From assembly GCF_003182135.1 (NCBI RefSeq), contig NZ_QGTL01000002.1, positions 62,001 to 126,000 of the forward strand: a DNA stretch of 64,000 nt. Direction: 5' to 3'. Every line of letters starts with the position of its first letter. The stretch's first letter is position 1. Positions 14,165-59,464 of the stretch are shown piece after piece. The notes below the pieces were generated by a model. That model was given only the letters and a program-made list of their open reading frames with translations. It was not told the origin of the DNA and searched no databases. Source of the stretch: Nocardia neocaledoniensis (lineage in GTDB: Bacteria; Actinomycetota; Actinomycetes; Mycobacteriales; Mycobacteriaceae). Both the position numbers and the translations under genes were made by a program.

Positions 14165-17100
14165 ATGACCCAGTCTTCCTCGCGTGCGACGACGACCGAG
14201 GCCACTCTTCCCCTGTCCGCCGCCCAGCGCGGCATCTGGTTCGCCCAGCACATCGCGGGCGAGACCCCCATCTCCATCGCCCAGTACATCGAGCTGACCG
14301 GCCCGGTCGACCACGCGGCGTTGACCGACGCCGTGCGGCGCACCGGCCGCGAATTCGGCACGGGGTACGTGCGGCTGGTCGACGTCGACGGCGAGCCGCG
14401 CCAGCTCGTCGACCTCTCGCTCGACGACGAGGTCGACGAACTGGACTTCCGGGCCGAACCGGACCCCGAGACGGCCGCCCACGCCTGGATGCGTGCGGAG
14501 TACTCCGCCCCACTCGACATGATGACCGACCGATTAGTCCGGGTCGCGCTGCTGCGGGTGAGCGAGGAACGCTGGTTCTTGTACGCGCGAATGCACCACA
14601 TCGTGCTGGACGGCATGGGCGCGCTCGCCCTGGTCCAGCGGACCGGCGAGCTCTACAACGCCCTCGTCGAGGGCCGCGAGCCACCGCCGTCCAAGGCCGA
14701 ACCGCTGTCGAAGATCGTCGAGGCCGATCTGGCGTACCGGACCTCCGAGCGCTTCGCGGCCGATCGCGAGTACTGGCGCGCGCACCTGGCCGGGATGGCC
14801 GATCCGGTGAACCTCGCCGGCCGGGACGCGCCCGTCGACGCCCACCCGGCCCGGGTGTCGGGCGCGCTGCCCGCGGAGACCGCGGCGTTGCTCGACACCG
14901 TTGCGGCGAAGGTCAATTCGGGTGTGGCGCCGACCGTGGTGGCGGCGTTCGGCGCGTATCTCGCGGCGATGACCGGTGCGACGGAGGTGGTGCTGAGTCT
15001 GCCCGTGTCGGCCAGGACCTCGGCGACGCTGCGCCGGTCCGGCGGCATGCTCGCCAATGTCGTCCCGCTGCGCGTCGCCCTCGCGCCGACGACGACGGTG
15101 GCCGACGCGATCCGCGCGGTGCAGGGCGAGCTGACCGGCGCGCTGCGCCGTCAGCGGTACCGGCAGGAGGACATCGTCCGCGATCTGGGCTGGTCGATGG
15201 ACGAGGCGGCGTCGTTCGGGCCCGCGGTGAATCTCATGATGGTCGACACCAGGATCGCGCTGGGCTCGGTCGTCGGGCGCCTGCACGTGCTCACCTCGGG
15301 GCTCATCGACGACCTGTTCGTCAACCTGTATCCGGGGGTGGGCGGCGAGAGCACCCACATCGACCTGCAGGGCAACGGCAATCTCTACAGCCCGGCCGAG
15401 CTGGCCGCCCACCACGCACGGTTCCTGCTGTTCCTGTACCAGTTCCTGGCGGCGGGGCCGGACGCGCCGCTGTCCACGGTGCCCGTCCTCGCGGCCGACG
15501 AGCAGGCGCTCTCGGTGCCGGCGCGTGGTCCTGCCGGCGTGGCGCCACGCACCCTCCCCGACATCCTGGCGGCGGGCGCGGCCATCGACCCGGACGCGGT
15601 CGCCCTGCGCTGGGGCAACGCGGAAACACTCACCTACCGGGCGCTGGACGAGTACACGAACCGGCTGGCCCGGGTGCTCATCGCCGCGGGCGCGGGTCCG
15701 GAACACGGTGTGGCGCTCTCGATTCCCCGCTCCGCGCAGTCGGTGCTGGCCACCGTCGCGGTGGCCAGGACGGGCGCGCCGTTCGTGCCGATCGACCCGA
15801 CCTATCCCGCCGACCGGATCGAGCACATGGTCGGCGACAGCGGCGTGGTCAGCGGGCTGACCGTGGCCGAGGCACGGAAGTCGCTGCCGGACAGCGTCTC
15901 CTGGCTCTGCCTCGACGACGAGGCGACCGTGCGCCGGATCGCCGAGCAGGAGACCGGGCCGCTCACCGATGCCGATCGGCGGGGCGCGGTCCACCTGGAT
16001 CAGGTGGCCTACATCATCTACACGTCGGGCTCGACCGGCCTGCCCAAGGGCGTGCTGGTGTCGCATCGCGGCCTGGCCAATCTCGTCGCGGGTTCGGGCG
16101 GCGGTTTCGGTGTCGACACGGGTTCGGTTGTCGCGCACGCTGTCTCGCCGAGTTTCGACATCTCCGTGGAGGAGATCCTGGTGACGCTCGCGAGCGGCGC
16201 CGCGCTGGCGATCGTGCCGCCGTCGGCGTACGCGGGCGAGGACATGGCGCAGGTGCTGCGCGCGCATCGGGTCACCCATCTCAATGTCACGCCCGCGGTG
16301 GTCGGTTCGCTGGATCCGGCGACGCTGCCCGAGTTGGGCACCATCGTGGTCGGTGGTGACGCGTGTCCGCCGGAACTGGTGTCGAAGTGGTCGGACCGGG
16401 TACTGCTCAACGGGTACGGGCCCACCGAGACGACGGTCACCACCACGCTGAGCGCACCGCTGCGGCCGGGAGCGCCCATGACCATCGGCGGTCTCGTCCA
16501 CGGTGTCACCGGGTTGGTGCTCGATCCGTGGCTGCGGCCCGTCGCGCCGGGCACCCTGGGCGAGCTGTATCTCGCCGGTCCCGGAGTGGCGCGCGGGTAT
16601 CACCGCCGCAGCGGATTGACCGCAAGCAGGTTCGTCCCGAATCCGCACGCGCCGGGTGAGCGGATGTACCGGACGGGTGATCTCGTCCGGTGGACGGCCG
16701 CCGACGGCCACGTCACCCTGGCATACCAGGGACGCAGCGATTTCCAGGTGAAGGTGCGCGGCTTCCGGATCGAGCTGGGTGAGATCGATGCCGCGCTGCA
16801 GCGGCTGGCCGAGATCGACTACGCGATCACCCTCGGCGTCGAATCACCCTCGGGTGCGACGGCGCTGGTGTCGTACGTGACGGCAGCGCCGGGCGCGGAG
16901 GTTCATCCCGAGGCGGTGAAAGCCGCTGTCGGTGAACAGCTTCCGGCCTACATGGTGCCGTCGGTCGTGATGGTCCTCGATCGGGTGCCGCTCACTCCTT
17001 TGGGCAAGGTCGACCGCAAGGCTCTGCCCGCCCCGGATTTCAGCGCCAGGGCGGTCGAGCTGCGGGCGCCGTCGAACCCACGCGAACAACTCCTGGCCGA

Positions 17101-20100
17101 GCTGTTCGCCGACGTCCTCGGGCTGGATGTGGTCGGTGTCGACGAGAGCTTCTTCGCCCTCGGCGGCGACAGCATCGTCTCCATCCAGCTGGTCTCCCGC
17201 GCCAAGGCCGCGGGACTGGGCTTCAGCGCCCGCGATGTCTTCGAGCGCAAGACCGTCGCCGCCCTGGCCGCGGTCGCCACCACCACCGAAGCCGCCGTGG
17301 TGCACGAATTGCCCGGCGGCGGTGTCGGTCCGGTGGAGCTCACCCCGATCGTGCACGCCATGCTCGAGCACGGCGACACCTGGCACCGCTACGCCCAGGC
17401 GGTGCTGATCGGTCTGCCCGCGGGCACCGATCGTGCCGCGCTGGCGACGGCGATCCAGGCGCTCACCGAGCACCACGACCTGCTGCGCTCGTCGCTGCGG
17501 CAAGTCGAAGGCCACTGGGAATGGGTTGTGGCCGAAGGTGGTTCGATCGACGTCGACGAATTGATCGAGGTGGTCCGGGTAGAGCCGGAAGCCGCACGCA
17601 CCAACGATCACACCTCCGCCGGTACCACGGCGCAGGACGCCGGCACCACCCTCGACTCCGTCAGCTCCCGCGACCGCGACCTGATCGAGCGCGCCCTCCA
17701 GCAGGCCGCGGACCGGCTCGACCCCACCTCCGGTGTCGTCGCCCGGTACGTCCTGCTCGAACGGCCGGAGGACTCGCCCCTGTGCTGGCTGGTCCTGCAC
17801 CATCTCGTCACCGACGGCGTCTCGTGGCGAATCCTGCTGCCCGACCTGGCCACCGCGGCGTACGGTGGCGCGCTCGACCCTGTCGGCACTTCGTTCCGGC
17901 GGTGGGCATACAGCCAGCCCGAGCAAGCGGCCGCACGCCGCGACGAATTGCCGGTGTGGCAAAGGATTCTGGCCACTCCGGACACCGCGTACGGCCACGC
18001 CACGTTCGATCCGGCGGGCGACACCGTCGCCACCATGGCGGAGTACCGCACGAAGATTCCGGCCGATCTCGCGCACTCGGTACTGACCACCCTGCCGGAG
18101 CGATTCCATTGCGGCGCCGACGATGTGCTGCTCGCCGCCCTCACCCTCGCGGTCTGCCGGTGGCGCGACCGCACCGGCGCGCTGCTGACCCTCGAGGGCC
18201 ACGGCCGCAGCGAATCCCTGCTCCCCGGCGCGGATGTCGCACGCACGGTCGGCTGGTTCACCAGCGTCTACCCCGTCGCCGTCGACCTGACCGGGATCGA
18301 CCTGGCCGACGCGTTCGCCGGCGGTCGGTCGGCGGGAGCGGCGATCAAGGCGACCAAGGAACAGCTGCGCGCGATCCCGGACAAGGGAGTCGGCTACGGC
18401 CTGCTGCGCTACCTCGACGACGAGACGGCGCGGGCACTGGCCGACGCCCCGACCCCGCAGCTCAGCTTCAACTACCTCGGCCGCGCGGTCACCGGCGGCG
18501 CCGATCCGTGGATCCCGCGCCGCTTCGCCGCGACCAACGACGACGATGCGCCCCTGGCGGCTGTGGTCGACATCAATGCCGTGCACACCGACGCGGGCCT
18601 CGAAGTCACCTGGGCCTACGCGAGCAGACTGCTCGACGCCGCCGCCGTGCGGGAGCTGGCCGATCTCTGGTCGGCCGCGCTCGAAGCGCTGGTCATCCAC
18701 GCGGCCGACGCGGGCGCGGGTGGCCGCACCCCGTCGGACTTCCCCCTGGTCACGCTCGACCAGCCACAGATCGAGCGATGGGAGAACGCATACCCGCGCC
18801 TCGCGGATGTCTGGCCGCTGTCCCCGCTGCAGTACGGCCTGCTCTTCCACGCCCTCTACGACTCCGACACCGCCGACGGCTACACGGTCCAGTCCCTGCT
18901 CACCCTCGCCGGCACGGTCGACGCCGCCCGCCTGCGCCGCGCGGCACAGGGCTTGATCGACCGGCACGAGAATCTGCGGGTGGCGTTCGTGGAAACCGAC
19001 GACGGGCCGCGTCAGCTCGTCCTCGACCACGCCGAGATCCGCTGGGACACGATCGATCTCACGGATATCGCCGACACCGAGGAGCGCACGCGCGAGCTCG
19101 ATCGGGTGATCGCGCTCGACGCGCGCACCCGCTTCGATCTGACCAGACCGCCGCTGGTCCGCTTCACCCTCGTCACCACCGCACCGGGCGAATTCCGGCT
19201 CGTCATGACCAATCACCACCTGGTGCTGGACGGGTGGTCGACGCCGTTGCTCGTGCGCGAACTGCTCGCGCTCTACGTCACCGACGGTGACGCCGCGGCG
19301 CTGCCGCCCGCACGTTCCTACCGCGAGTTCCTGTCCTGGCTCGCCGCCCAGGACGCCGACGCCTCCCTCGCGGCCTGGCGGCAGGCCCTGGCCGGGATCG
19401 ACACCCCGACCCGCGCTGTGCCCACCCTGGCCGGCATCGAGTCCACCGAGACCGGCATGCTCTCGCACGAGCTGACCGCCGACACCGTCCGGGTGCTCGA
19501 GGCCGCCGCCCGCGAGGCGGGCGCGACGGTGAACACCCTCGTCCAGGCGGCGTGGTCGATGCTGCTGGCCATGCTCACCGGCCGCACCGATGTGGTGTTC
19601 GGCAGCACGGTGTCGGGGCGACCGCCGGAGTTGTCCGGCGTCGAGGAGATGGTCGGGCTGTTCATCAACACCGTCCCGGTGCGGGTGACGCTGGATCCGG
19701 CGGAGAAGGTGAGCGATCTGCTGGCCCGCGTCCAAGCCGAGCAGGCCCGGCTCATGGATCACCAGCACGTCGGTCTCGCGGCGATCCACCGCGCGGTGGG
19801 TCTGGCCGAATTGTTCGACACCCTCACCGTTTTCGAGTCCTATCCGATCGATCGCGAGGCGCTGTCGCAGGCGCTCGACATCGCCGGGATGCGGGTACTC
19901 GACGTGGAGGGCACCGACGCGACGCCGTATCCGTTGAACCTCATGGTGATCCCGCTGCGCGGCGACACCGGCGACGCGCTGCGCATCACCGTGAAATTCC
20001 TGGCAGATCAGCTCGCCCCCACCGCCGCGCAGTCGCTGCTCGACCGGTTCGTGCGGCTGCTCGGGCAGCTCGCCGACCACCCGCATGCCCTGGTCTCGCA

Positions 20101-23100
20101 GCTGCAGCCCTGCGACGACATCGAACGGGCCGCCTTGGCGCCGGTGCGCGGCCCGAGCGCCCTGCCCATGCGGACTCTGCCCGACATCCTGGCGGCGGGC
20201 GCGGCCATCGACCCCGACGCGGTCGCGGTCACCGCGGGCGAATTGTCCATGCGCTACAGCGAACTCGACGCCTGGTCGAACCGCTTCGCGCGCGTGCTGC
20301 TGCGGCGCGGGATCGGGCCCGAGGTGTTCGTGGTGCTCGCGCTCACCCGCTCGCTGGAATCGGTGGTCGCGGTGTGGGCGCTGGTGAAGACCGGCGCGGC
20401 GTTCATGCCGCTGGACCCGAGCTACCCGGTCGAACGGATCGAGCACATGCTCGCCGATTCCAAGGCGCCGATCGGCGTCACGGTCACCGCGATCGGCGAG
20501 ACACTGCCCGCCACCATCGACTGGCTGCTGCTCGACGACCTGAACACCCTGCGCCGCGCCATGCTGGTCTCCGACGCGCCCATCACCGACGCGGAGCGCG
20601 GCGGTCCCATCGACCTCGATCACACCGCCTACCTGATCTACACCTCCGGCTCCACCGGCAAGCCCAAAGCGGTGCTGCTCAGTCATCGCGGCGTCGCCAA
20701 TCTCACGGCCGCCCAGCGGGAAACCATGGATCTGGACCCGACGGCCAGCGCCTTGCAGGTGGCCTCCCCCAGCTTCGACGCCTCCGTATTCGAGATGCTC
20801 ACCGCGCACGCGGCGGGCGGCAGGCTCGTGGTGTCGCCGCCCGAGGTGTACGGCGGCGACGAACTCGCCCAGCTGCTGCGCACCGAGCGGGTCACCCACG
20901 CGGTGATCACGCCGTCGGCCCTGGCCACCATGGAACCGGCCGGACTCGACGCGTTGCGCGTGCTCTCGGTCGCCGGCGAAGCCGCCACACCCGAGCTCAT
21001 CGAGAAGTGGGCGCCGGGGCGGCGCATGCTGAATCTGTACGGCCCCACCGAATTCAGCATCTGGGCCACCGGTCCGGCCGAACTCGTCGCGGGCGAACCG
21101 GTCACCATCGGCGGGCCGATCCGGGGTGCGGCGGTGGTCGTGCTCGACGGCTGGCTGCGACCGGTCCCCGTCGGCATCCAGGGCGAGCTGTATCTGGCCG
21201 GCCCCGCCTTGGCCCGTGGCTATTTCAACCGCTTCGAGATGACCGCGAGCCGCTTCGTCGCCAACCCGTTCGGCGCCGCCGGGGAACGCATGTACCGCAC
21301 CGGTGACATGGTGCGCTGGGTCGAGAACGACGGCGACCTGGCACTGGAATACCTGGGCCGCAGCGACTTCCAGGTCAAGATCCGCGGGCTGCGTATCGAA
21401 CTGGGCGAGATCGACGCGGTGCTCACCCGCGACGACCAGATCGACTACGCGGTCACCATCGGCCGCGCGGGACCTGCGGGCGCCACGGTGCTGGTGTCCT
21501 ATGTGCTGCCGGTGCCCGGGATCGATCTCGACACCGAACGGGTGCGTGCCGGGGTGGCCGCCGAGCTGCCCGGGTACATGGTGCCCGCCTACGTCGTGGT
21601 CCTCGACGAGATTCCGCTGACCCCGGTCGGCAAGCTGGACCGCAAAGCCCTTCCGGTACCGGACTTCTCGGTGACCGACCGTCCGTACCTCGCGCCCCGC
21701 ACGCCGACCGAGGAGGCCGTCGCCCGGGTGTTCGCCGACGTGCTCGGCGCCGAGCGGGTGAGCGTCGACCAGTCCTTCTTCGAACTCGGCGGCAACTCGC
21801 TCAGCGCCACCAAGGTCGTCGCCCGCGTCAATTCCGCCCTCGGCGCCACCATCGCCCTGCGCGACCTGTTCGACGCCCCCACGGTCGCGCACCTGTCCTC
21901 CCGGGTCGTGCCCGCCGCCGACGGCGGTCCCGGCCGCCCCGCGCTGGCCGCGCGCATCCGCCCCGACCGCGTCCCGCTCTCCCCCGCCCAGCAGCGCATG
22001 TGGGTCCTCAACCAGCTCGACCCCAGCTCCTCGGCCTACAACATCGCCATCGCCCTTCGCCTCACCGGCGACCTGGATGTCGACGCCATGCGCCGCGCCC
22101 TCGCCGACGTGGTCGAACGCCAGGAGACCCTGCGCACCCGCTACCCCGCCGACGCCGAGGGCCCGCGCCAGGTCGTCGTCGACGTCGACACCGCCGTTCC
22201 CCCCATGCCGGTCGTCACCACCGACGACGGTGCGCCCCTGCGTGCCCGCATCAACGACCTGGCCGGAACCGGCTTCGACCTCACCAGAGAACCGCCCCTG
22301 CGCGTCGCCCTGTTCTACATCGGCACGCCAGCGCCGGACCGGACCGGTGGCACCGACATGCGCGCAGCAGCGGTCGCCGGCTCCCCCTCGGGCGCAGACG
22401 CGGGGGAACACCCACCCGTCCACGTCATCGTCCTCGTCGTGCACCACATCAGTGCCGACGGTGCGTCGATGGCGCCGCTTGCCGGCGATCTGGTCGCCGC
22501 GTATTCGGCGCGGGTGGCTGGAGACGAGCCGGATCGGGTGCCGCTGGGTGTGCAGTACACCGACTTCGCCCTGTGGCATCGCGAACTGCTCGGCAGCGAG
22601 TCCGATCCGGATTCGATGGCCGCGCAGCAGATCCGGTACTGGGGCGAGGTTCTCGCGGGCGCGCCGGACGCACTCGAGCTGCCCAGCGATCGCCCGCGCC
22701 CGGCCGTGCAGTCGATGCGCAGCGACGACGTCGCCTTCACCATCGACGAGCGGACGCACCGCGCGCTGGTCGACACTGCCGCGGCGAACAACGTCAGCGT
22801 CTTCATGGTGGTGCACGCCGCGCTGGCGGTGCTGCTCGCACGGCTGGGCGGCACCGACGACGTCGTCATCGGCACGCCGGTCGCGGGCCGGGGCGAGGCC
22901 GCGCTCGACGACCTCGTCGGCATGTTCGTCAACACGCTCGCCCTGCGTACCCCCGTCGATCCGGGCACCGGTTTCCGGCAATTGCTCGGGCAGGTGCGGG
23001 CCACCGACCTCGAAGCCTTCGCCCGCGCCGATGTGCCGTTCGAGCGGCTCGTCCAGGTGCTCGACCCGGTCCGGTCGACCGCGCATCACCCGCTGTTCCA

Positions 23101-26100
23101 GGTGTCGCTGTCGCTGCAGAACTTCGTCGAGCCGGTCCTCGAACTCCCCGGCCTGCGGTTCGAGGTCGAGGACTTCGATCGCCGCTCCTCCGCCTTCGAC
23201 CTCACCCTCGATCTGCGCGAGCGCTTCGACGAGACCGGCCCCGCGGGCATCGAGGGCGTACTCACCTACGCGACAGACCTTTTCGACCCGCCCACCGTCA
23301 CCGAGTTCGCCGCCAGATGGCGCCAGGTGCTCACAGCGGTCCTCAACGACCCGGACCTCCGCATCGCCGACATCGACATCCTCGCGGAATCCGAACGCGC
23401 CGAACTGATCCCGGTCCGCGGCCCGTCCACCAGCGGCACGACCACCCTGGCCCGCCTGCTCACCGCCACCGCCGCCACCCACCCGAACCGCCCCGCCCTC
23501 GTCATCCAGATCCCGGACGATCGCGCCGCCGACGCCAGCGGTCACGCCCCCGCCGCCAGCACCACCTACCAGGCACTCGACGCACGCTCGAACCAGCTCG
23601 CCCGGCTGCTCATCGACGCGGGCGCGCGCACCGAAACCGTGGTGGCACTGGGCCTCCCCCGGTGCGCCGAGCTCCACATCGGCATCTGGGCGGCGGCCAA
23701 GACCGGCGCGGCGTTCCTGCCGGTGGATCCGAAGCATCCCACGGATCGGATCGCGCACATGCTCTCCGATTCGGGGGCGCCGGTGGGGCTGACGCTGGCC
23801 GCCTACCGGCCGCAGCTGCCCGACACCACGAGGTGGCTGGTCCTCGACGACCCCGAATGCGCCGCCCACCTGGACGCGATGAGCGCGGCCTCGCTCACCA
23901 CCACCGAACTCCCGGCCCCCATCCACATCGACAGCCCCGCCTGGATGATCTACACCTCCGGCTCCACGGGAACGCCGAAGGGCGTGACCGTCAGCCACCG
24001 CGGGCTGGCCGACCTGGTCGCCGCGCAACGCGCCGACCTGCGCCTGGACGAACAGGCCCGCGTACTCCAGGTCGCCTCACCGAGCTTCGACGCATCGATC
24101 TTCGAGGCCCTGATGGCCTTCGGCGCCGGCGGCGCGTCGGTGATCTCGCCGCCCGACGTCTTCGGCGGCGGCCCGCTCGCGGAGCTGATCGCGGCGGAGT
24201 CGGTGACGCACATGGTGATCACCCCGTCGGCGCTGGCCACCATCGACCCGGCCACCGTCTCGAGCCTGCGGGTCCTGGCGGTCGCCGGTGAGGCGGTCGG
24301 CCCCGACCTCGTCGCGCGCTGGTGCGGTGACGAGTCCGGGCGGACCATGGTCAACCTGTACGGCCCGACCGAATACACCATCTGGGCCACGGCCTCGGCG
24401 CCCCTGTCGGCGGACGAACCGGTGACCATCGGCGCACCGATCCGCGGCGCGGCGGCCCTCGTCCTCGACGACCGGCTCCGACCTGTACCGGTCGGCGTCG
24501 CCGGTGAGCTCTATCTCGCCGGCTCCGCCATGGCACGGTGCTACCACGCCCGCCCGGGCCTGACCGCCACGCGCTTCGTCGCGGACCCGTTCGGCGCGCC
24601 CGGCGAACGCCTCTATCGCACCGGTGATCTCGTGCGCTGGACCGGCAACGCCCGCCTCGCCCGGGGTGGTCACGTCGAGGCCGTCGGGCACCAGGAGCAC
24701 CGGGCGCACCCGGACCGGGAGCAGGTACTCACCCTGGAGTACCTCGGCCGCACCGACTTCCAGGTGAAGGTCCGTGGCCAGCGCATCGAACTCGGCGAGA
24801 TCGACGCTGTCCTCAGCCGCCTCGACGGCGTCGACGTCGCTGTGACACTGGGTGTTCCAGGCCCTACCGGCGCAACCGCACTCGCCGCCTATCTGGTGCG
24901 CTCCCCGGGCATCGACCTCGACATCGCCAGGATCCGCGCCGAAGCCGCCGACATCCTGCCGGGGTACATGGTCCCCGCGGCCTTCGTCGTCCTGGACGAG
25001 ATCCCCATCAACGCGGTCGGCAAGCTCGATCGAAAAGCGTTGCCGGAACCCGTGTTCACCGTCGAGGACGCGCCGTACCGCGCACCGGAGACGACGACCG
25101 AGCAGATCCTCGCCGAGGTCTACGCCGAACTGCTCGGCCGCGACCGCGTCGGGGTGGACGATTCCTTCTTCGCCCTCGGCGGTGACAGCATCCTCGCGAT
25201 CCAGCTGGTGACGCAGGCGAAACTGCGTGGCGTGCACTGCACTCCGCTGCAGGTGTTCGAGCACCGCACGGTCGGCGCGCTCGCCGCGGCCGTCGACACC
25301 GCGGGCGCGGCCGTCGAGCTGGCCGAGCTGCCCGGCGGCGGCGTGGGCGAACTCCCGCTCACCCCGATCGTCCGGTACATGGTCGAACGCGGCGGCGACT
25401 TCGACCGGTTCGCCCAGACCGCGGTGCTGGAACTGCCCGTCGGCATCGAGCGCCAGGGCCTGGTCGCGACCCTCGGCGCCGTGCTCGACCGCCACGACAT
25501 GCTGCGCTCGCGGCTCTGGCGGGACGAGCAGGGCTGGCACCTGCGGGTCGCCGAGCCCGGCTCCGTCGATGTCGACGCCCTGGTGCACCGCACCGAGTTC
25601 GACGCGCTCGACAGCATCGACCTGCGCGAATACGCGCAGACCGAACTCGAGGCCGCCATGAACCGCCTCGACCCCGCGCGCGGCGTGGTCCTGCAGTTCC
25701 GCTGGCTCGACCAGGTCGGTGACGCGGGCGCCCGCACCCGCCCGGGACGGCTCATCATCGTCGCCCACCACCTCGCCATCGACAGTGTCTCGTGGCGCAT
25801 CCTCGTGCAGGACCTGATCGGCGCGTGGGCGCAGGTGTCGGCGGGCGCCACCCCGGTCCTGGCCGACGTGGGCACCTCCATGCGTCGCTGGTCGTACGCC
25901 CTCACCGAGGCGGCAGGCGAGCGCGCCGAGGAACTCGGCTACTGGCGGCGCGTCGTCGACTGCCCCGACCCGCCGCTCGGCGACCGCGAACTCGATCCCG
26001 CGATCGACCTGAGCCCGACCGTGCGCCGCGTGGATCTCGAGGTCTCCGAGCAGGTCACCGACGCCCTGCTCACCACCCTGCCGCGGCTGTTCCACGGCAG

Positions 26101-27601
26101 CGTCACCGACGGCCTCTACGCCACCCTGGCGCTGGCCCTGATGCGGTGGCGCGCCCGCCGCGGTGTCGACGAGCGATCGGCGCTGCTGCGCCTGGAAGGC
26201 CATGGACGCCAGGAGGAGATCGTGCCCGGCGCCGACCTGTCCCGGACCATCGGCTGGTTCACCTCCCTGTACCCGGTGCGCCTGGACCTCGACGACATCG
26301 ATCTGGACGACGCGTTCGCCGGCGGTCCGGCCCTCGGCACCGCGATCCGCGCCGTCAAGCATCAGCTGCTCGCGGTGCCGGACAAGGGAATCGGCTTCGG
26401 CCTGCTCCGCTACCTGAACCCGGACACCGCCGCGCAACTCCCCACCCGGCTGCCCGGACAGATCGTCGTCAACTATCTCGGCCGCCACACCTCCGCCGAG
26501 ATCCCCGCCGGGCTGGAGGGTCTCGGCTGGCTCCCCGCCGACGATCTCGGCGACCTGCACGCGGCCGAACATCCCGATGTCCCGGCCATGTCGGCGATCG
26601 ATGTGAACGCCCTGGTGTCCGGCGACCGCCTGCGGGCCGACTTCGGCTACCCGGAACACCTCTTGACCCGCGAGGCCGTCACCGAACTGGCCGACCTCTG
26701 GGCCGAAGCGCTCAGCGCCGCAGCGCGATTCGCCGATTCTCCCGCCGCCCAGCGGGCCGCGGCCGAGGAGACCGCCGCGCTGGCGGCGCGCGCCGCCGAC
26801 GCCGGACCCGCCGGACTCGGCCTGGACGTGTTGCTGCCGATCCGGCTCGGCGGCGACCGCCCCGCCCTGTTCTGCGTGCACTCCTCCTCCGGAATGTCCT
26901 GGAGCTACCTGGGTTTCGCCGAACGACTGCGTCCAGGCCGCCCGATCTACGGACTACAGGCCCCCGACCTCAGCGGCCGCGAGCCCTCCGCCCGCTCGAT
27001 CGAGGAGTTCGCGCGGCGGTACGTGCGCGAGATACGGGCCGTCCAACCACACGGCCCGTATCACCTGCTCGGCTGGTCGTTCGGCGGGCTGATCGCCCAG
27101 GCCATGGCCGTCGAGCTGACGGCCGCGGGCGAGCGGGTGGGCGTGGTCGCCCTGCTCGACACCGACACCGCCGACATCGACGGCGACACCATCGAGCGCC
27201 TCACCCCCGGCGCCTTCATCAACACCTTCGGCTCGATCTTCGGCATCGACAACGTCCCCGCCGAGGCCACCGCCGCCGAAGCCGCCCAGCTCATCGCCGC
27301 GAAGATGGGCGGAGTCGAACTCCTCGACGCCGCCACCATCGAACGCATGGCGGGCTCCTACAACGCCTCCGCGGGGACCCGCACCGGCTATCAGCGCCCC
27401 GTCTACGACGGCGACGTCCTGTATTTCACGGCCACCGTCGACCCCGCCGAATGGATGGGGCCCGAGGGCTGGCGGCCCTACGTGACCGGCGAGATCGTCG
27501 ACGTCCCCGTCGACGTCACGCACGACGAGATGACCACTCCGCAAGCACTGTCGGCGATCTCGCCGGTGCTCGACGACCACATGGAAGCAGGAGACCGATG
27601 A
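14165..27601 (+). CDS. Three-module nonribosomal peptide synthetase (C-A-T-E / C-A-T / C-A-T-E-TE)
   Basis: This 4478-aa synthetase has every core motif visible. C1: HHIVLDG at 144. A1: YTSGSTG at 619. T1: phosphopantetheine serine 1003 (GGDS). E1: [10 protein letters not shown] at 1212. C2: HHLVLDG at 1684. A2: 2159. T2: serine 2545 (GGNS). C3: HHISADG at 2760. A3: 3263. T3: serine 3675. E2: [10 protein letters not shown] at 3868. TE: GWSFGG with serine 4305 and THDEM histidine near the end. C1 resembles the EntF starter condensation domain, so residue 1 may receive an aryl or acyl cap. Ten-residue codes read by hand are DIENVGGVTK (A1, near hydroxyornithine codes), DAFVSALIWK (A2) and DAFVAALIWK (A3). 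Residues 1 and 3 should be epimerised. Its stop overlaps the exporter start (ATGA). Product unknown. Confidence 0.96.
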
Positions 27602-41855: not shown

Positions 41856-44800
41856 TCACCCGACGTCGGTGCCCTCGGCCGCACGATGGTCCACCGACGC
41901 GTGGGCTCGACGGGGACGCCCGTCGAGCGCCTCGGCCAGCGCGGGCCCGATCGTGCTCAGCGCGCGGGTGCCGGTGATGTTCCAGTGGGTGGCGTCGACC
42001 GGCACGTCGCGGATGTCACCGGCGATGTGGTCGCGCCAGGCGACGGCCACCCGGCCTTCGCCGCGGTCGTCGCGGTCGGCGGTGAAGAACAGCAGGTCGC
42101 CGTCGTAGACGCGGGGGCGGTGGGCCGCGCCGATCACCTGCGTGTGCAGGATGCCCGCGAAGAGCCGGTGCACCCGCTCCTCGGTCAGTTCCTCGAACGG
42201 GCCGGGCAGGCTCGACACCAGCGTGACCGCGTCGGCCGGCGTGAATTCGGTGACCGGAGTGGCGAGTTCGTGTTCGGTGCCGAACTGGCCGAGCAGGTCG
42301 CCCACCGTCACCGGATCCTCACTGCGGTAGCCGACGTCGCCGACGAAGGAATCCAGCATGGCCAGCACCTCCACCCGCTCCCCCAGGTCCCGCAGCCGGA
42401 CCGCCATGGCGTGCGCGATCACCCCGCCGACGCACCAGCCGAGCAGCCGGTACGGTCCGTGCGGCTGGACGGCGCGGATCCTCGTCACGTAGTCGGCGGC
42501 CATGGCCTCGATCGACTCGGGGTGCGCGGTGTCCTCGGCGATGGCGGGCGACTGCAGGCCATAGATCGGGCAGGACAGTTCGGCGGACAGACCGGCGAAG
42601 CTCCAGGCCAGGCCGACCACGGGGTGCACGCAGAACAGCGGCGCGCCGCGGCCGCGGCCGCGCAGGGTGAGCACCGGCGCCAGTGCGGATTCCGCGGCTC
42701 CCTCGCCGACCCGGCGGGCCAGTTCGGCCGGGGTCGGGTCGCTGAACAGCCAGGCGAGGGCGACGTCGGCCGACAGTTCCGCGCGCAGGCGGGACACCAC
42801 CCGGGTCGCCAGGATCGAGTTGCCGCCGAGATCGAAGAAGGAGTCGTCCGCGCCGACCCGGCCGGCGCCGAGGAGTTCGGCGAAGACCGCCGCGATCGTC
42901 TGCTCGGTGGCTCCCTCGGGCTCCCGGTACGCGCGGCCGGAGCCGAACTCGGGAGCCGGCAGCGAGGCGAGCGCCAGCTTTCCGTTCGGCGTCAGCGGCA
43001 GGGCGTCGATCACCATCACAGCGGCGGGAATCTGGTACTCGGGCAGCATGTTTCGCAGTCGGGCACGGACGGCGGCAGCCGTGATCTCGGCGCCCCTCGC
43101 CGCCACCACGTAACCGACGAGCTGCTGCCCCCTCGCCGGATCGTCGCGCACGACCACCACCGCCGCGGCGACACCGGCGCACTTCAGCAGCGCCACTTCG
43201 ATTTCCGCGGGCTCGATGCGGTAGCCGCGAATCTTCACCTGCCGGTCCGCGCGACCGAAGTGCTCGAGTCCACCCTCGCGATTCCAGCGGCCGAGATCAC
43301 CCGAGCGGTAGAGAACGCGGCCCACGGCACGGGGGTCCGCGACGAACCGGGTGGCGGTGAGCCCGGGCCGATGCAGGTAGCCACGGGTGACCTGCATTCC
43401 GCCGATATAGATTTCGCCCACGACACCGGTCGGCACGGGATGCAGCCGGGCGTCGAGCACCTCGACGGTGAGCCCGTCGAGCGGTCGGCCGATCGGGCTC
43501 CCGGCCCGGTGATGTTCGCCGTCGGTGATCGCGGTGTGTGTGACGTGCACCGTGGTCTCGGTGATGCCGTACATGTTCACCAGCCGAGGCCCATCGGACC
43601 CGTGCCGGTCGAGCCAGGAGGTGAGCCGGCGCGGATCCAGCGGCTCACCGCCGAACACGATGCGGCGCAGAGGCGGTGGGGCGTACTCGGCCGGCGGGCC
43701 ATGAGCGGGCTCCGGCTCGCCCCGGACCTCCGGAACTCGCCCGGCGCCCTGCGTCGCCCGCGGCGGGATCCGCCGCGCGCTCGACGTCTCCTGATCCGCA
43801 CGGCCCCGCGCGACGCGTTCGTTCGTCGTCGCCAGCGCGTCCGCCTCGTCCAGACCGGCGAAAGCGGACGGCGTCTGGCCCAGCACCGAAACCTGTTCGC
43901 GGCCGAGCATTTCACGCAGCCGCTCGGGTGACCGCGCGGTCTCGCGATCGACCACCACCAGCGCGGCGCCGGTGGTGAGCGCGCCCCACATCTCCCAGAC
44001 GGCGAAATCGAACGCGGCCGAATGGAACAGCGCCCAGACATCGCCGGCGCGGGTGGTCAGTGCCCGCCGGGACCGCTCCAGCAGCGCGACGATCTGACGA
44101 TGCTCGACCGCGACACCTTTCGGCGCGCCGGTGGACCCGGAGGTGTAGATCACGTACGCGACGTTCTCCGCACGAACCGGGGCGTGGCGGACCCGATCGG
44201 ACAGCCCGACGGCGGCGCCCTCGCACCGTTCGGCCAGTCCGCCACCGGCGACCGGGCGCACGACCAGCCCGTCCTCGATCACGCGCACCGGCCGCGCGTC
44301 GGCCAGCAGGTAGTCGATCCGCTCGCGTGGCGACTCCGGGTCGATGGGCACATAGGCCGCGCCGCTACGGATCACCGCGAGAACGGCCACGATCAGCTCG
44401 GCCGAGCGGCCGACGCGGACCGCGACTCGTCGCTCGGGGCCGGCTCCCGCCGCCACGAGCCGCCGGGCCAGGACCGCGCTGCGGTCGTCGAGTTCCCGGT
44501 AGGTCAGCGTGGTCGTCCCGGCGCGGACAGCCGTCGCGGACGCGTGCCGGTGTGCCGCGACGTCGAACAGGTCGTTCAGCGTACGGTGGTCGCGGCGGTC
44601 GGCGGGGGGCGCCGCCGGGGCGCTCGCATCGGTCAGGTCGATGTCACCGACCGTCGCGGCAGGGTCGGCGGCGACCGCGCCGGCGAGGCGCTCGAGAGTG
44701 TGGGCGAACAGCTCGATCGTCGCGCGGTCGAACAGGTCGGTCGCGTAGGTGAACGCCAGCGCGATGGTGTCGGCGGCTGGTTCCGACATCGTCAGCTGGA

Positions 44801-47714
44801 GGTCGAATTTCGCGGGGGTGAGCGAGGATTCGACGGGTTCGACGGCCAGACCGGCCGTTGCCGTGTCGACGGCGGCGGCCGCGGTGAGCACCACCTGGAA
44901 CAGCGGATGGTAGGCGCGGGTGCGCGGCGGATCAATCGCCTCCACGACGCGCTCGAACGGCAGATCGGCATTGGCCAGCGCACCCAGGTCGATGTCGCGG
45001 ACGCGGGTGAGCACGCCGGTGAAGGAATCGGCGGGGTCGACGGTCGTGCGGAGCACGACCATGTTGACGAACATGCCGACCAGGTCGTCCAGCTCCGGCC
45101 CGCCGCGACCGGCCACCGGAGTGCCGATGGCGATATCGCCTCCCGCGCCCGAACGAGCCAGTGCCACAGCGAGAATCGCGTGCACCACCATGAACTGGGT
45201 CGCGCCGTGCGCCACCGCGAGCCGCCGCAGCGCCGACGCGAGTTCAGGGCCGAGTTCGAGGGTGACGACCGCGCCCACGCCCGACGCGACAGCCGGAAGG
45301 GGCCGGTCGACGGGAAGGTCGATCCGGGGCGCGAGCCCGGCGAGCCGGGCCCGCCAGTACCGTAGCTGACTGTCGAATTCCGCCGCGCCGGCCTGACCGG
45401 TGAGCCAGTCCTGCTGTGCCAGTGCGTAATCGGCGTAGGCGGCGGGCAGCGGCGCGAAGTCGGGCAGACCGCCGTGTCGCCGCGCCGCGTACGCGCCGAA
45501 CAGGTCGCGCGCCAGCGGGCCCAGCGACCAGCCGTCGGCACTGATGTGGTGGACGACGAGGGCCAGCACGTGCTCGTCCGAACCGATCGCGAACAGCCTG
45601 GCCCGCAGCGGTGGCTCCGACGTGAGATCGAAACCCACGCTGCCGAATTCGGCCAGCGCGGGGTCCAGCCCAGCCGGGTCCACCATGACCCGATCGAGCG
45701 CGCCGCGCGCCCCGTCGATCGGCAGCACACGCTGGACACCGATGCCGTCGACCTCGGGGTACAGCGTGCGCAGCGGCTCGTGCCGCTCGATCACGTCGTC
45801 GAGGGCGGCCCGCAGCGCCGCGACCGACAGCGGACCACGCACGCGCACCGCCAAGGCGATGTTGTCCGCAGGCGACCGGTGGTCGATCCGGTTGAGCACC
45901 CACAGGCGCCGCTGGGCGGGAGCCAGCGGCAGGGCCGCCGGACGTTCGCGCCGCGTCACCGGTGGTCGCGGCGCCGTCCGCGAGAGCGTGCGCACCGTGG
46001 CGGCCAGCCGAGCCACGGTCGGCGCGTCGAAGACCGCGCGCACCGGGACGTGCTTGCTCGTCGCGGCGCCCAGCCGCGCCCCGAGCTGGGCCGCGAGCAG
46101 CGAGTTCCCGCCGAGGGCGAAGAAGTCGTCGTGCGCGCCGACCGGGGTACCGAGGAGTCCGGCCATGACCGTGCTCACCAGGCGTTCGACCGCGTCGGCC
46201 GGCTCGGCGCCGCGCCCGGTGGCGAAGGTGGGAGCGGGCAGGGCGGCCCGGTCGACCTTGCCGACCGGGGTCAACGGCAACTCGTCGAGCACGACCACGG
46301 TCGCGGGCACCGCGTGCGCGGCGAGCCGCTCGCGGGCGAAGGCCAGTACGCGGGGGATGTCCACCGTGTGTCCCGGTTCGGCGGTCACATAGCTCACCGG
46401 AACCAGCGCGCCCGCCGGATTGCGGCAGCCGGTCGTCACCGCGGCACGGATGTCGGCGTGCGCTGTCAGCACGGCGTCGATCTCGCCGGGCTCCAACCGG
46501 ATGCCGAGGACCTTGAGCTGAAAGTCCGTGCGGCCGAGGAACTCCAGATTGCCCTCGGCGTCGGAGCGGACGAGGTCGCCGGTGCGGTACCTGCGCGTCC
46601 CGGACGGCCCGGCGACGAACCGCGCCGCCGTCGCGCCCGGAGCGCGCCGATAGCCGCGTGCCACGCCCGGCCCCGACAGGTACAGCTCGCCGGGCGCGCC
46701 CGCGGGCACCGGGCGCAGGCGCTCGTCGAGGACCTGTGCCGTCCAGCCGTCGAACGCCGCGCCCAGCGCGACCGGCGCACCGGCGACCAAGCGCCGGGCG
46801 GTGACGAAGACCGTCGTCTCCGTCGGTCCGTAGCCGTTCACGTAGGTCCGGCCCGGCGCCCACCGCGCGATCAGCGCCGGATCCGAAGCGTCGCCACCGA
46901 CCATCAGCCCGCGCAGTGTGGTGTGCCTGCGCGGGTCGAGGGTCGCGAGCACGGCGGGCGTGATGATCGCGTGCGTCACCGCCTGCCCGGCGATGAGCTC
47001 GTCGAGTTCGGCGCCGCCGGTGATCTCCGGCGGCACGATCACCAGCGTCGCGCCGTGCGCGAAGGCCAGCAGGAGTTCGTTGACGAACAGGTCGAAGCCC
47101 GGCGAGGCGATCTGCAACACGCGCGCGTCGTCGAGTGGTCCGAGCGCGGCCGACACCTCGGCGAGCAGTGTGCCGAGCCCACGATGAGTCACCGCCACGG
47201 CCTTCGGCGCGCCGGTCGAACCGGAGGTGTAGATCACGTAGGCGAGCTGGTCGAGACGGGCCGGGGCCAGCCGGTCGGCATCGGTGAGCGGTGCCGGATC
47301 GTGCTCGGCGCAGCGGCGCAGGAGTTCCTCGTCGTCGAGCACGATCCAGGTGATCCAGCTCGGCAGCCCGGGCAGCACGGCCCTGGTGGTGATGCCGATC
47401 CGGGCGCCCGCCTCGGCCAGCAGCTGCCCGCGCCTGCTCGGCGGCTGCCGCAGGTCGACCGGGAGGAACGCGGCGCCGGTCGCGGCGACAGCCCACACCG
47501 CGCGCACCAGCTCCACCGATCGCGGCACCGCCACCAGCACCACGGTCTCCGGCCCGGCCCCCCGCGCCACCAGCTCGCGTGCGAGCCGGTGCGCGGTGTC
47601 GGCGAGCGCCCCATAGCTCCAGCTGCGCCCGCCGTCCACCACGGCGACGCGCTCCCCCGCCCCACCTCGACCGAGGAGCTCACCGAACGTGCCAAGCTGC
47701 CGGATCGCGGTCAT
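41856..47714 (-). CDS. Two-module nonribosomal peptide synthetase with cysteine-type thioesterase (A-T-C-A-T-TE)
   Basis: This 1952-aa synthetase starts directly with an adenylation domain. Domains: A1 (YTSGSTG at 162), T1 (serine 538, GGNS), C (HHISADG at 722), A2 (YTSGSTG at 1190), T2 (serine 1633, GGNS), TE. The thioesterase elbow reads LLGWCVGG, with cysteine 1761 where serine is usual; the histidine is in ATHWNI (1910). Codes read by hand are DLNIMGGVFK (A1, unknown) and DFWGVGMVHK (A2, close to the threonine code DFWNIGMVHK). A2 carries an insert of roughly 45 residues rich in Arg, Pro and Glu between its FDFAVWEM and FGGE motifs. The ATG at 47712-47714 is 79 bp after an alpha/beta hydrolase gene, likely the same operon. 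No epimerase or starter C domain. Confidence 0.95.
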   Translation of the reverse strand: MTAIRQLGTFGELLGRGGAGERVAVVDGGRSWSYGALADTAHRLARELVARGAGPETVVLVAVPRSVELVRAVWAVAATGAAFLPVDLRQPPSRRGQLLAEAGARIGITTRAVLPGLPSWITWIVLDDEELLRRCAEHDPAPLTDADRLAPARLDQLAYVIYTSGSTGAPKAVAVTHRGLGTLLAEVSAALGPLDDARVLQIASPGFDLFVNELLLAFAHGATLVIVPPEITGGAELDELIAGQAVTHAIITPAVLATLDPRRHTTLRGLMVGGDASDPALIARWAPGRTYVNGYGPTETTVFVTARRLVAGAPVALGAAFDGWTAQVLDERLRPVPAGAPGELYLSGPGVARGYRRAPGATAARFVAGPSGTRRYRTGDLVRSDAEGNLEFLGRTDFQLKVLGIRLEPGEIDAVLTAHADIRAAVTTGCRNPAGALVPVSYVTAEPGHTVDIPRVLAFARERLAAHAVPATVVVLDELPLTPVGKVDRAALPAPTFATGRGAEPADAVERLVSTVMAGLLGTPVGAHDDFFALGGNSLLAAQLGARLGAATSKHVPVRAVFDAPTVARLAATVRTLSRTAPRPPVTRRERPAALPLAPAQRRLWVLNRIDHRSPADNIALAVRVRGPLSVAALRAALDDVIERHEPLRTLYPEVDGIGVQRVLPIDGARGALDRVMVDPAGLDPALAEFGSVGFDLTSEPPLRARLFAIGSDEHVLALVVHHISADGWSLGPLARDLFGAYAARRHGGLPDFAPLPAAYADYALAQQDWLTGQAGAAEFDSQLRYWRARLAGLAPRIDLPVDRPLPAVASGVGAVVTLELGPELASALRRLAVAHGATQFMVVHAILAVALARSGAGGDIAIGTPVAGRGGPELDDLVGMFVNMVVLRTTVDPADSFTGVLTRVRDIDLGALANADLPFERVVEAIDPPRTRAYHPLFQVVLTAAAAVDTATAGLAVEPVESSLTPAKFDLQLTMSEPAADTIALAFTYATDLFDRATIELFAHTLERLAGAVAADPAATVGDIDLTDASAPAAPPADRRDHRTLNDLFDVAAHRHASATAVRAGTTTLTYRELDDRSAVLARRLVAAGAGPERRVAVRVGRSAELIVAVLAVIRSGAAYVPIDPESPRERIDYLLADARPVRVIEDGLVVRPVAGGGLAERCEGAAVGLSDRVRHAPVRAENVAYVIYTSGSTGAPKGVAVEHRQIVALLERSRRALTTRAGDVWALFHSAAFDFAVWEMWGALTTGAALVVVDRETARSPERLREMLGREQVSVLGQTPSAFAGLDEADALATTNERVARGRADQETSSARRIPPRATQGAGRVPEVRGEPEPAHGPPAEYAPPPLRRIVFGGEPLDPRRLTSWLDRHGSDGPRLVNMYGITETTVHVTHTAITDGEHHRAGSPIGRPLDGLTVEVLDARLHPVPTGVVGEIYIGGMQVTRGYLHRPGLTATRFVADPRAVGRVLYRSGDLGRWNREGGLEHFGRADRQVKIRGYRIEPAEIEVALLKCAGVAAAVVVVRDDPARGQQLVGYVVAARGAEITAAAVRARLRNMLPEYQIPAAVMVIDALPLTPNGKLALASLPAPEFGSGRAYREPEGATEQTIAAVFAELLGAGRVGADDSFFDLGGNSILATRVVSRLRAELSADVALAWLFSDPTPAELARRVGEGAAESALAPVLTLRGRGRGAPLFCVHPVVGLAWSFAGLSAELSCPIYGLQSPAIAEDTAHPESIEAMAADYVTRIRAVQPHGPYRLLGWCVGGVIAHAMAVRLRDLGERVEVLAMLDSFVGDVGYRSEDPVTVGDLLGQFGTEHELATPVTEFTPADAVTLVSSLPGPFEELTEERVHRLFAGILHTQVIGAAHRPRVYDGDLLFFTADRDDRGEGRVAVAWRDHIAGDIRDVPVDATHWNITGTRALSTIGPALAEALDGRPRRAHASVDHRAAEGTDVG

Positions 47715-47793
47715 CCACCGATTAGACCGACAACCCCCCACTTCCGAAAAGCCCGATTTCCATGGGCAACCGCCGACAGCGCGCGGGCGGCGT

Positions 47794-48489
47794 TCAGTCC
47801 GCGCTGCCCCTGATCGCCTCCTCGATCAAGTCGACGACCGGCCCCGGCTGCGACGCCAGGGAGGCGTGGCTCGCCGCGAGTTCCACGATCTTGCGCGGGT
47901 TCATCCGCTCGGCCATGCGGCGCTCGTTGTCCGGATGGATCATCCGGTCCTCCGTCGAGACCTGGTACCAGGTGGGCTTCGCCTTCCAGGCGGGCGCGGT
48001 CACCGTGTCGCCGAAGGTCGAGCCGAGCGGGGCCTTCTGCGTCACCGCCATCACCAGCGCCTCGTCGGCGGTCAGGTCCTGGCAGAAGCTGTCGTGGAAC
48101 TCGTCCCGCGCGATCCACAGGTAGCCGTCCGAATCCGGGGCGATCGCGGCGACCGCGGCGGGCGGCTGCTGCTCGGTGATCGCGCCGGGGCTCTCCCCCG
48201 CGTCGGGCGCGAAGGCCGCGATGTAGACCAGTCCGACGACATTGGGCAGGTCACCGGCCTCGGTGATCACCGCGCCGCCGTAGGAGTGCCCGACGAGCAC
48301 GACCGGGCCGTCGACCTGGGCCACCATCTTCCGCGTGCGCTCGGCGTCGTCGGCCAGCGAGGTGAGCGGATTCTCCACCGCGCGCACCTGCGTGACACCG
48401 CGCCGGTTCAGCTCGACGATCACCTTCGACCAGTGGGCGGCGCCACCCCAGAAACCATGCACCAGAACGATTGTCGGCTCCACAGCCAT
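47794..48489 (-). CDS. Alpha/beta hydrolase
   Basis: This 231-aa protein begins TIVLVHGFWGGAAHWSKVI, has the nucleophile elbow VLVGHSYGGAVI (serine about residue 69) and ends with the histidine segment VELAASHASLASQPGPVVDLIEEAI. This is the compact esterase/hydrolase type common in actinomycetes. I chose the ATG at 48487-48489, preceded by GAGAAGG. It reads in the same direction as NRPS2 with 79 bp between, so it may tailor, release or hydrolyse the NRPS2 product. It is divergent from the frameshifted AraC gene. Confidence 0.85.
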   Translation of the reverse strand: MAVEPTIVLVHGFWGGAAHWSKVIVELNRRGVTQVRAVENPLTSLADDAERTRKMVAQVDGPVVLVGHSYGGAVITEAGDLPNVVGLVYIAAFAPDAGESPGAITEQQPPAAVAAIAPDSDGYLWIARDEFHDSFCQDLTADEALVMAVTQKAPLGSTFGDTVTAPAWKAKPTWYQVSTEDRMIHPDNERRMAERMNPRKIVELAASHASLASQPGPVVDLIEEAIRGSAD

Positions 48490-58471: not shown

Positions 58472-59464
58472 GTGCGCTTCGGCATCTTCGTCCCCCAGGG
58501 TTGGCGGCTCGACCTGGTCGGCATCGAACCGGCGGACCAGTGGGCGGTGATGCGTGAGTTGGCGCAGCGCTTCGACGCGGGCTCGGACTGGGAATCGATC
58601 TGGGTGTACGACCATTTCCACACGGTGCCGGTGCCGACGAACGAGGCCACCCACGAGGCGTGGACCCTCATGTCGGCTTTCGCGGCCAGCACCTCCCGGG
58701 TTCGGCTCGGCCAGATGTGTACCGCCATGAGCTACCGCAACCCCGCCTACCTGGCCAAGGTGGCCGCCACCGTCGACCTGATCTCCGGTGGCCGGGTGGA
58801 GATGGGCATCGGTGGCGGCTGGTACGAACACGAGTGGCGCGCCTACGGTTACGGCTTCCCCTCCGCCGGTGAGCGGCTGGGCCGGCTCGACGAGGGCGTG
58901 CAGATCTTCCGGCAGGCGTGGTCGACCGGCCGGGCCACCCTGAACGGCAAGTACTACCAGGTCGACGACGCCATCGTGCATCCGAAGCCGCTGCAGGAGA
59001 ACGGCATCCCGATCTGGATCGCGGGCGGCGGCGAGAAGAAGACGCTGCGCATCGCCGCGACCTACGCCGACTACACCAACTTCTCCGGCGAGCCGGCGGA
59101 GTTCACCCGCAAGTCCGACATCCTGCGCGCCCACTGCGCCGAGGTCGGCACCGACTTCGCCGCCATCACCCGCAGCTCCAACTTCAACGCCATCGTCGGC
59201 AGCACCGAATCCGAAGTCCAGGAACGACTCTCGACGGTGATCGACCGCTACACCCCGTTCCTCGGCGCCGACGAGGCCAAGCTGCGCGTGCACGAACTGT
59301 TCGACAACAGTGCCGCCGTCGGCACGCCCGAGCAGATCGTCGAACGCCTCAGCGCCGTCAAGGATCTCGGCCTCGCCTACGCCATCCTCAACTTCCCCGA
59401 AGCCGCCTACGACACCTCCGGCATCGAGCTCTTCGAACGCGAGGTCATCCCGGCGCTGCGCTGA
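58472..59464 (+). CDS. LLM-class flavin/F420-dependent oxidoreductase
   Basis: This 330-aa TIM-barrel protein is of the luciferase-like monooxygenase family: MRFGIFVPQGWRLDLVG at the start, WVYDHFHTVP near residue 44, MCTAMSYRNPAYLAKVAATVDLISGGRVEMGIGGGWYEHE (about 82-121) and IPIWIAGGGEKKTLR (about 180-194). These features, in actinomycetes, usually mean coenzyme F420 or FMN as cofactor. It would reduce or oxidise a small substrate that cannot be named. The GTG start has GAGGAG about 7 bases upstream. Confidence 0.88.
   Translation: MRFGIFVPQGWRLDLVGIEPADQWAVMRELAQRFDAGSDWESIWVYDHFHTVPVPTNEATHEAWTLMSAFAASTSRVRLGQMCTAMSYRNPAYLAKVAATVDLISGGRVEMGIGGGWYEHEWRAYGYGFPSAGERLGRLDEGVQIFRQAWSTGRATLNGKYYQVDDAIVHPKPLQENGIPIWIAGGGEKKTLRIAATYADYTNFSGEPAEFTRKSDILRAHCAEVGTDFAAITRSSNFNAIVGSTESEVQERLSTVIDRYTPFLGADEAKLRVHELFDNSAAVGTPEQIVERLSAVKDLGLAYAILNFPEAAYDTSGIELFEREVIPALR

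Follow-up and report, generated by a model that had tools for sequence, protein, structure and literature searches.

Which product is released by a nonribosomal peptide synthetase (NRPS) whose terminal thioesterase (TE) carries a cysteine at the place of the nucleophilic serine? This question is raised by NRPS2, a gene of Nocardia neocaledoniensis within a stretch of 64,000 nucleotides (contig NZ_QGTL01000002.1, positions 62,001 to 126,000, from assembly GCF_003182135.1, a genome of 7.32 million bases), which is called the window here and to which all coordinates refer. We tentatively propose that NRPS2 would release a predicted dipeptide, Xaa followed by a threonine-like residue, as a beta-lactone, although we consider this answer possible and not established, and several other modes of release have to be weighed against it.

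The thioesterase cysteine is conserved in a clade of Nocardia enzymes

The open reading frame (ORF) of NRPS2 opens at 47741 on the minus strand, with the ATG at 47714, and ends at 41856. A Pfam scan of the protein (two AMP-binding, two PP-binding, one Condensation and one Thioesterase domain) gives the order adenylation (A), carrier (T), condensation (C), A, T and TE, with no N-terminal C domain, which agrees with the domain layout given in a preliminary description of this DNA. All 16 proteins compared (the window protein and P0004-P0018) retain the serine of each carrier domain and the C-domain motif HHISADG. The TE, an alpha/beta-hydrolase domain, is located at the C-terminus after a carrier domain and passes the family of type I NRPS thioesterases, PF00975, with 92.5 bits against a curated cut-off of 26.4; its structure model has a predicted local distance difference test (pLDDT) value of 84.2. 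Judged from this layout NRPS2 is a complete two-module synthetase, from which the small dipeptide-like product named in the preliminary description is still expected.

The nucleophile motif of the TE reads GWCVGG, and the TGC codon proposed for it was confirmed at 42434-42432, so that the cysteine is residue 1761 counted from the ATG or 1770 in ORF numbering. Among the best 120 of 3359 protein matches, the best of which are Nocardia proteins (the closest named one from N. neocaledoniensis, 97% over the searched region), Cys is present in the 15 nearest homologues, namely the two-module proteins P0004-P0017 and the three-module protein P0018. Ser is found in 104 of the remaining 105, with one unreadable protein (P0033) left out of the count. 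In a tree of 145 thioesterases the 18 Cys rows related to NRPS2 (window, P0004-P0018, L012 and L013) fall together on one side of a branch with a support of 100 in the Shimodaira-Hasegawa-like approximate likelihood ratio test (SH-aLRT) and are separate from 19 other Cys rows (L019-L037). This is a quick tree with SH-aLRT support alone and several long branches, built without P0033, P0038 and P0052, the last two of which were later read as Ser. It requires at least two switches between Ser and Cys, a rough lower bound because the 19 other Cys rows were gathered by a pattern mostly demanding Cys.

Besides the cysteine, a further 12 residues of the TE are invariant in the clade yet occur in at most 10% of the 108 Ser rows, and eight of these 12 fall in the lid region (TE positions 112-179). 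A single-base accident or a sequencing error at the nucleophile codon is ruled out by the presence of Cys in 18/18 related thioesterases. On this comparative evidence, the cysteine is kept by selection and is no incidental change. Carriers of the clade were detected in seven of 150 Nocardia genomes (E <= 1e-70), all with Cys and, by frame length, five with two-module and two with three-module enzymes. A search of 397 genomes of the order (E <= 1e-60) gave matches in four, two of which belong to the same genus and had already been counted, and the other two, from other genera, contributed three matches (L111-L113), all with Ser. As far as searched, the Cys clade appears restricted to Nocardia, and no publication on Cys thioesterases in Nocardia was found in the open-licence literature searched.

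A fixed terminal pocket and a drifting first pocket

Read by alignment columns, the code of the first adenylation domain (A1) is DLNIMGGVFK and that of the second (A2) is DFWGVGMVHK, the latter being near the threonine code, as had been noted before. The nine A2 pocket columns hold a single code across 15 two-module orthologues, the window protein among them, and the A1 pocket occurs with 11 different codes in the same set, even though the divergence of the whole domains is similar, with all-pairs identities of 0.792 for A1 and 0.779 for A2 and 49% invariant columns in each. The TE is the most conserved domain of these orthologues (0.846). Ratios of nonsynonymous to synonymous substitution rates (dN/dS, NG86) of 0.16-0.40 over A1, C, A2 and TE, for the window against L009, L010 and L011, indicate that the gene is under purifying selection.

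The A2 pocket is predicted to be threonine-like and to select a beta-hydroxy amino acid, and the Gly at the fourth code position, where Asn stands in the threonine code, suggests a substrate larger than threonine; the letters of the A1 pocket look aliphatic. The three-module relatives P0018, L012 (N. speluncae) and L013 (N. carnea) belong to the same Cys clade (GWCYGG in L012 and L013) and end with the plain threonine code DFWNVGMVHK. Unlike NRPS2, L012 and L013 have an extra first module that opens with a C domain, and they retain the Asn of the terminal code.

A2 of NRPS2 also differs in length between code positions 278 and 299. This interval spans 65 residues in NRPS2 (43665-43859), 65 in P0005 and 57 in P0006, and 17-30 residues in ten of the 15 homologues (P0007, P0010-P0012, P0014-P0018 and, with 30, P0004); three of the 15 are unread. 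The additional segment has many Arg, Pro and Glu residues, and part of its DNA matches contig C4 with 81% over 52 bases.

The predicted catalytic triad differs from that of ObiF and SulM

The preliminary description had likened the TE to the cysteine thioesterases of obafluorin (ObiF) and sulfazecin (SulM) biosynthesis. Their mark is a catalytic Asp relocated to a place after beta-7 (position II), and in ObiF1 the ordinary place, position I, is occupied by Gly (excerpts of PMC11298585 and PMC6668435). This likeness was not supported beyond the nucleophile. In NRPS2 the predicted triad consists of Cys1770, Asp1797 and His1919 (ORF numbering), each present in 15/15 two-module rows, and the Asp at position I is found in 18/18 clade rows as well as in 108/108 Ser rows. 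An Asp at the place of position II is also present in 18/18 clade rows, but it occurs in 67/108 Ser rows, too. The Gln-Cys-Asn motif, by which the SulM type is recognized in passages of PMC11298585, is replaced by Trp-Cys-Val.

A cysteine, an Asp at position I 27 residues further on and a His are the features of another group, which comprises BulbE and AB3403. BulbE from the bulbiferamide pathway of Microbulbifer has the same spacing (Cys961/Asp988) and its Cys is not replaceable by Ser, as described in parts of PMC11536411. The two enzymes are likened by description, and their products differ: BulbE closes a ureidopeptide via an indole nitrogen, a poor nucleophile, and NRPS2 is predicted to make a dipeptide with a threonine-like end. 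AB3403 from Acinetobacter baumannii (4zxh) combines Cys with the ordinary Asp and is stated to be uncharacterised in the part of PMC11298585 consulted; it is a four-domain enzyme, whereas NRPS2 has two modules. Based on such published descriptions, we place the NRPS2 thioesterase in this Cys/position-I group, and it would belong to neither the ObiF nor the SulM class. This does not mean that NRPS2 cannot form the same ring.

Like NRPS2, ObiF1 combines a Cys nucleophile with a small product; it also has a beta-hydroxy terminal residue, which for NRPS2 is a prediction. ObiF1 reportedly has a starter C domain. It differs from NRPS2 in the two Asp positions and in a fused MbtH-like domain (excerpts of PMC6668435). 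SulM likewise shares the Cys nucleophile and the small product, and it differs in Gln-Cys-Asn, in the Asp at position II and in the sulfotransferase and diaminopropionate genes of its cluster (excerpts of PMC11298585). Another mark of the SulM type is a positively charged residue at two of three arginine positions in the active site. A search with the clade profile (E values up to 10) recovered 44 sequences without ObiF1 among them, and the ObiF1 chain 6n8e appeared in the Protein Data Bank matches via its A and T domains together with the initial part of the TE. Neither ObiF1 nor SulM was within the first 50 rows of the fold searches with the TE model, which carries no weight.

Release as a beta-lactone and its alternatives

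In the proposed mechanism, A1 would load a variable residue on T1 and A2 a threonine-like beta-hydroxy amino acid on T2, the C domain would join the two residues and the chain would move from T2 to the cysteine as a thioester. There, the terminal residue would attack the thioester carbonyl with its beta-hydroxyl and set free a four-membered lactone. The fixed part of the enzyme, the A2 pocket and the Cys thioesterase, would build the warhead and the drifting A1 pocket would supply the recognition residue. We infer a product of dipeptide size with a variable first residue that is released from a thioester. The beta-lactone is favoured because the most strictly fixed parts are those that such a warhead needs and because ObiF needs the thioester: closure of its lactone depends on the Cys, and with Ser in place of this Cys the enzyme mainly hydrolyses, according to parts of PMC6668435. 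The constant A2 pocket next to a changing A1 pocket, the 12 residues fixed together with the Cys and the threonine code of the three-module relatives are in line with this interpretation.

Several observations weigh against the beta-lactone. The catalytic Asp would not be at position II as in ObiF and SulM (excerpts of PMC11298585), and BulbE, with its ordinarily spaced Cys, makes a macrocyclic indolylamide, which shows that such a Cys thioesterase need not form a four-membered ring (excerpts of PMC11536411). The nearest folds of the TE model are the skyllamycin cyclase, AB3403, EntF and Vlm2. As a control, 13 of 101 readable proteins outside the clade end in a DFWN(I/V)GMVHK module with a Ser thioesterase, so a threonine end alone does not call for Cys; P0020, P0033, P0047 and P0123 are not part of this terminal-code count, their last A domain having been found outside the last module. 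The substrate of A2 is read from a code, DFWGVGMVHK, that was not found in the open-licence papers searched. Finally, as NRPS2 lacks a starter C domain, its dipeptide is expected to have a free N-terminal amine, and this amine could form a diketopiperazine instead.

Among the alternatives, release of the dipeptide by simple hydrolysis or onto an amine or alcohol provided in trans, with the Cys as a habit of the lineage, is unlikely in our view. The repeated Ser/Cys switches on the tree and the uncharacterised AB3403 with its Cys and ordinary Asp would fit such a release, but the strictness of the Cys and the 12 co-fixed residues argue that thioester chemistry is needed, and serine variants do hydrolyse: besides the ObiF variant mentioned above, SulM C2818S rapidly hydrolysed its own product (excerpts of PMC11298585). 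It is rather unlikely that the free N-terminal amine attacks the Cys thioester to give cyclo(Xaa-Thr-like). Six-membered ring closure is easy, and the missing starter C domain of NRPS2 should leave the amine available. Thioesters also favour aminolysis compared to oxoesters (passages of PMC11536411). However, the same Cys clade contains three-module enzymes that open with a C domain, for which a capped amine is expected, and a diketopiperazine would leave the fixed threonine-like pocket without a reason. A cyclic depsipeptide oligomer, in which two or three Xaa-Thr units are linked via the Thr hydroxyl and cyclised as by EntF or Vlm2, is quite unlikely. EntF and the skyllamycin cyclase have a Ser nucleophile in the alignments to the TE, and Vlm2 has a catalytic serine (excerpts of PMC6668435); the skyllamycin cyclase TE (7crn, 7dxo), with Ser in 7crn, is moreover a bifunctional epimerase and cyclase according to parts of PMC11735501. 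A siderophore transport gene common to the carriers of NRPS2 was not found between the CoA (coenzyme A) ligase and reductase genes at its locus.

A sulfazecin-style beta-lactam from a diaminopropionate-type terminal residue, the other ring considered in the preliminary description, is very improbable: the Cys nucleophile would suit it and a terminal residue with a beta-heteroatom is possible in principle, but the terminal code is threonine-like, the nucleophile stands in Trp-Cys-Val with Asp at position I, no sulfotransferase was found among the 34 window genes, of 40 called, that were scanned with Pfam, and PF00685, the one sulfotransferase family sought genome-wide, has its only match on a different contig (C6).

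Beyond the beta-lactone as such, NRPS2 might represent a one-gene beta-lactone factory, a more far-reaching proposal that we regard as doubtful. The Nocardia Cys thioesterase line would have arrived at four-ring closure separately from ObiF and SulM, using an ordinary triad, an invariant threonine-like warhead module and a fast-changing recognition module, and the species would make differently aimed dipeptide beta-lactone inhibitors. If the beta-lactone is true, four-ring closure does not depend on the relocated Asp that marks ObiF and SulM, and NRPS2, a single gene that is easy to express, would yield covalent inhibitors with a recognition residue that already varies in nature. If a diketopiperazine or an oligomer is formed instead, another use of the Cys thioester in peptide release would be added. 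In both cases, a two-module enzyme would be at hand on which to test why Cys is used by some thioesterases.

NRPS2 as an inserted gene

A TetR-lipase-CoA ligase block near the gene for the ribonucleotide reductase small subunit was found in ten genomes. From 14 stretches examined, the nine with the reductase gene were counted together with the window, L097-L101 without this gene were excluded, and the lipase locus G029 was not included. NRPS2 is located between the block and the reductase gene in five of the ten (window, L088-L091), directly adjoining the latter in L088, and no NRPS2 match was found in the other five (L092-L096), with the flanking frames only 61 bases apart in L092. By this comparison, NRPS2 is an inserted gene. 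The positions of its parts and of a neighbouring hydrolase gene are listed in Table 1.

Table 1. Positions of NRPS2, its domains and catalytic residues, and an adjacent gene in the window.
Feature	Position	Strand	Basis
NRPS2, two-module synthetase A1-T1-C-A2-T2-TE	41856..47714	-	ORF, Pfam
A1 adenylation domain, code DLNIMGGVFK, variable pocket (11 codes in 15 orthologues)	46257..47669	-	Pfam, alignment columns
T1 carrier domain, FFALGGNSL	45996..46211	-	Pfam
C condensation domain, HHISADG	44628..45932	-	Pfam
A2 adenylation domain, code DFWGVGMVHK, same pocket in 15/15 orthologues	42978..44567	-	Pfam, alignment columns
T2 carrier domain, FFDLGGNSI	42708..42902	-	Pfam
TE thioesterase domain, Cys nucleophile	41922..42668	-	Pfam, model
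TGC codon of nucleophile Cys (residue 1761 from ATG)	42432..42434	-	sequence
Putative catalytic Asp, position I, 27 residues past Cys, directly after strand in model	42351..42353	-	alignment, model
Asp at place of position II, also kept in 67/108 Ser rows	42069..42071	-	alignment, model
Putative catalytic His (DATHW)	41985..41987	-	alignment
Alpha/beta-hydrolase gene just upstream of NRPS2, possible accessory, not required	47794..48489	-	in 3/5 carriers, 0/5 empty sites

Since the TetR-lipase-CoA ligase block is present alike without NRPS2, it is not part of the NRPS2 pathway, and the lipase, CoA ligase, TetR and ribonucleotide reductase genes were rejected as partners, as they also stand together in L092-L096. 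An epoxide-hydrolase-like gene (named by eye) was dismissed as well; it lies beside NRPS2 in L089-L091 and also in the empty sites L094 and L096. The pair of AraC and alpha/beta-hydrolase genes is present in three of the five carriers (window, L089, L091) and absent from L088 and L090, and no match to the hydrolase was obtained genome-wide (E <= 1e-40) in these two carriers or in the five empty-site genomes. The pair may be accessory and not always present, the putative hydrolase for instance acting on the product. Apart from NRPS2, no gene of the locus occurs in every one of the five carriers while being absent from the five empty sites; for this reason, the core chemistry can apparently do without a partner encoded at the locus, which is in line with release as a beta-lactone. 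An MbtH-like gene is not present in the window, and two such genes are found elsewhere in the genome (contigs C3 and C9).

A luciferase-like monooxygenase gene beside a three-module relative (L012:10845-11837) is 77-79% identical to window positions 58472-59464, about 11 kb from NRPS2. This shared gene places both synthetase types in the same chromosomal neighbourhood, and judging from this the two-module and three-module types possibly derive from one ancestral locus. A second synthetase of the window, NRPS1 (14165-27601), has 4478 residues, the A codes DIENVGGVTK, DAFVSALIWK and DAFVAALIWK and a Ser thioesterase, and is followed by ABC-2 transporter and periplasmic-binding-protein genes; no result links it to NRPS2.

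Other cysteine thioesterases

The Cys thioesterases outside the Nocardia clade are of several forms. In the actinobacterial ones (L020-L031, L034, L035 and L037, from Streptomyces, Crossiella, Glaciibacter, Nocardiopsis and Frankia), which are separate from the Nocardia clade in the tree, the motif is GWCGG[SGA] and the Asp strand reads LLDP. Solimonas synthetases (L032, L033, L036) have the form GWC[IV]AGA. A Lysobacter synthetase (L019:7853-10789) combines GWCLGG with Asn and not Asp at position I (CAVNYF), and it would be more promising than NRPS2 as a candidate for a relocated triad of the ObiF kind.
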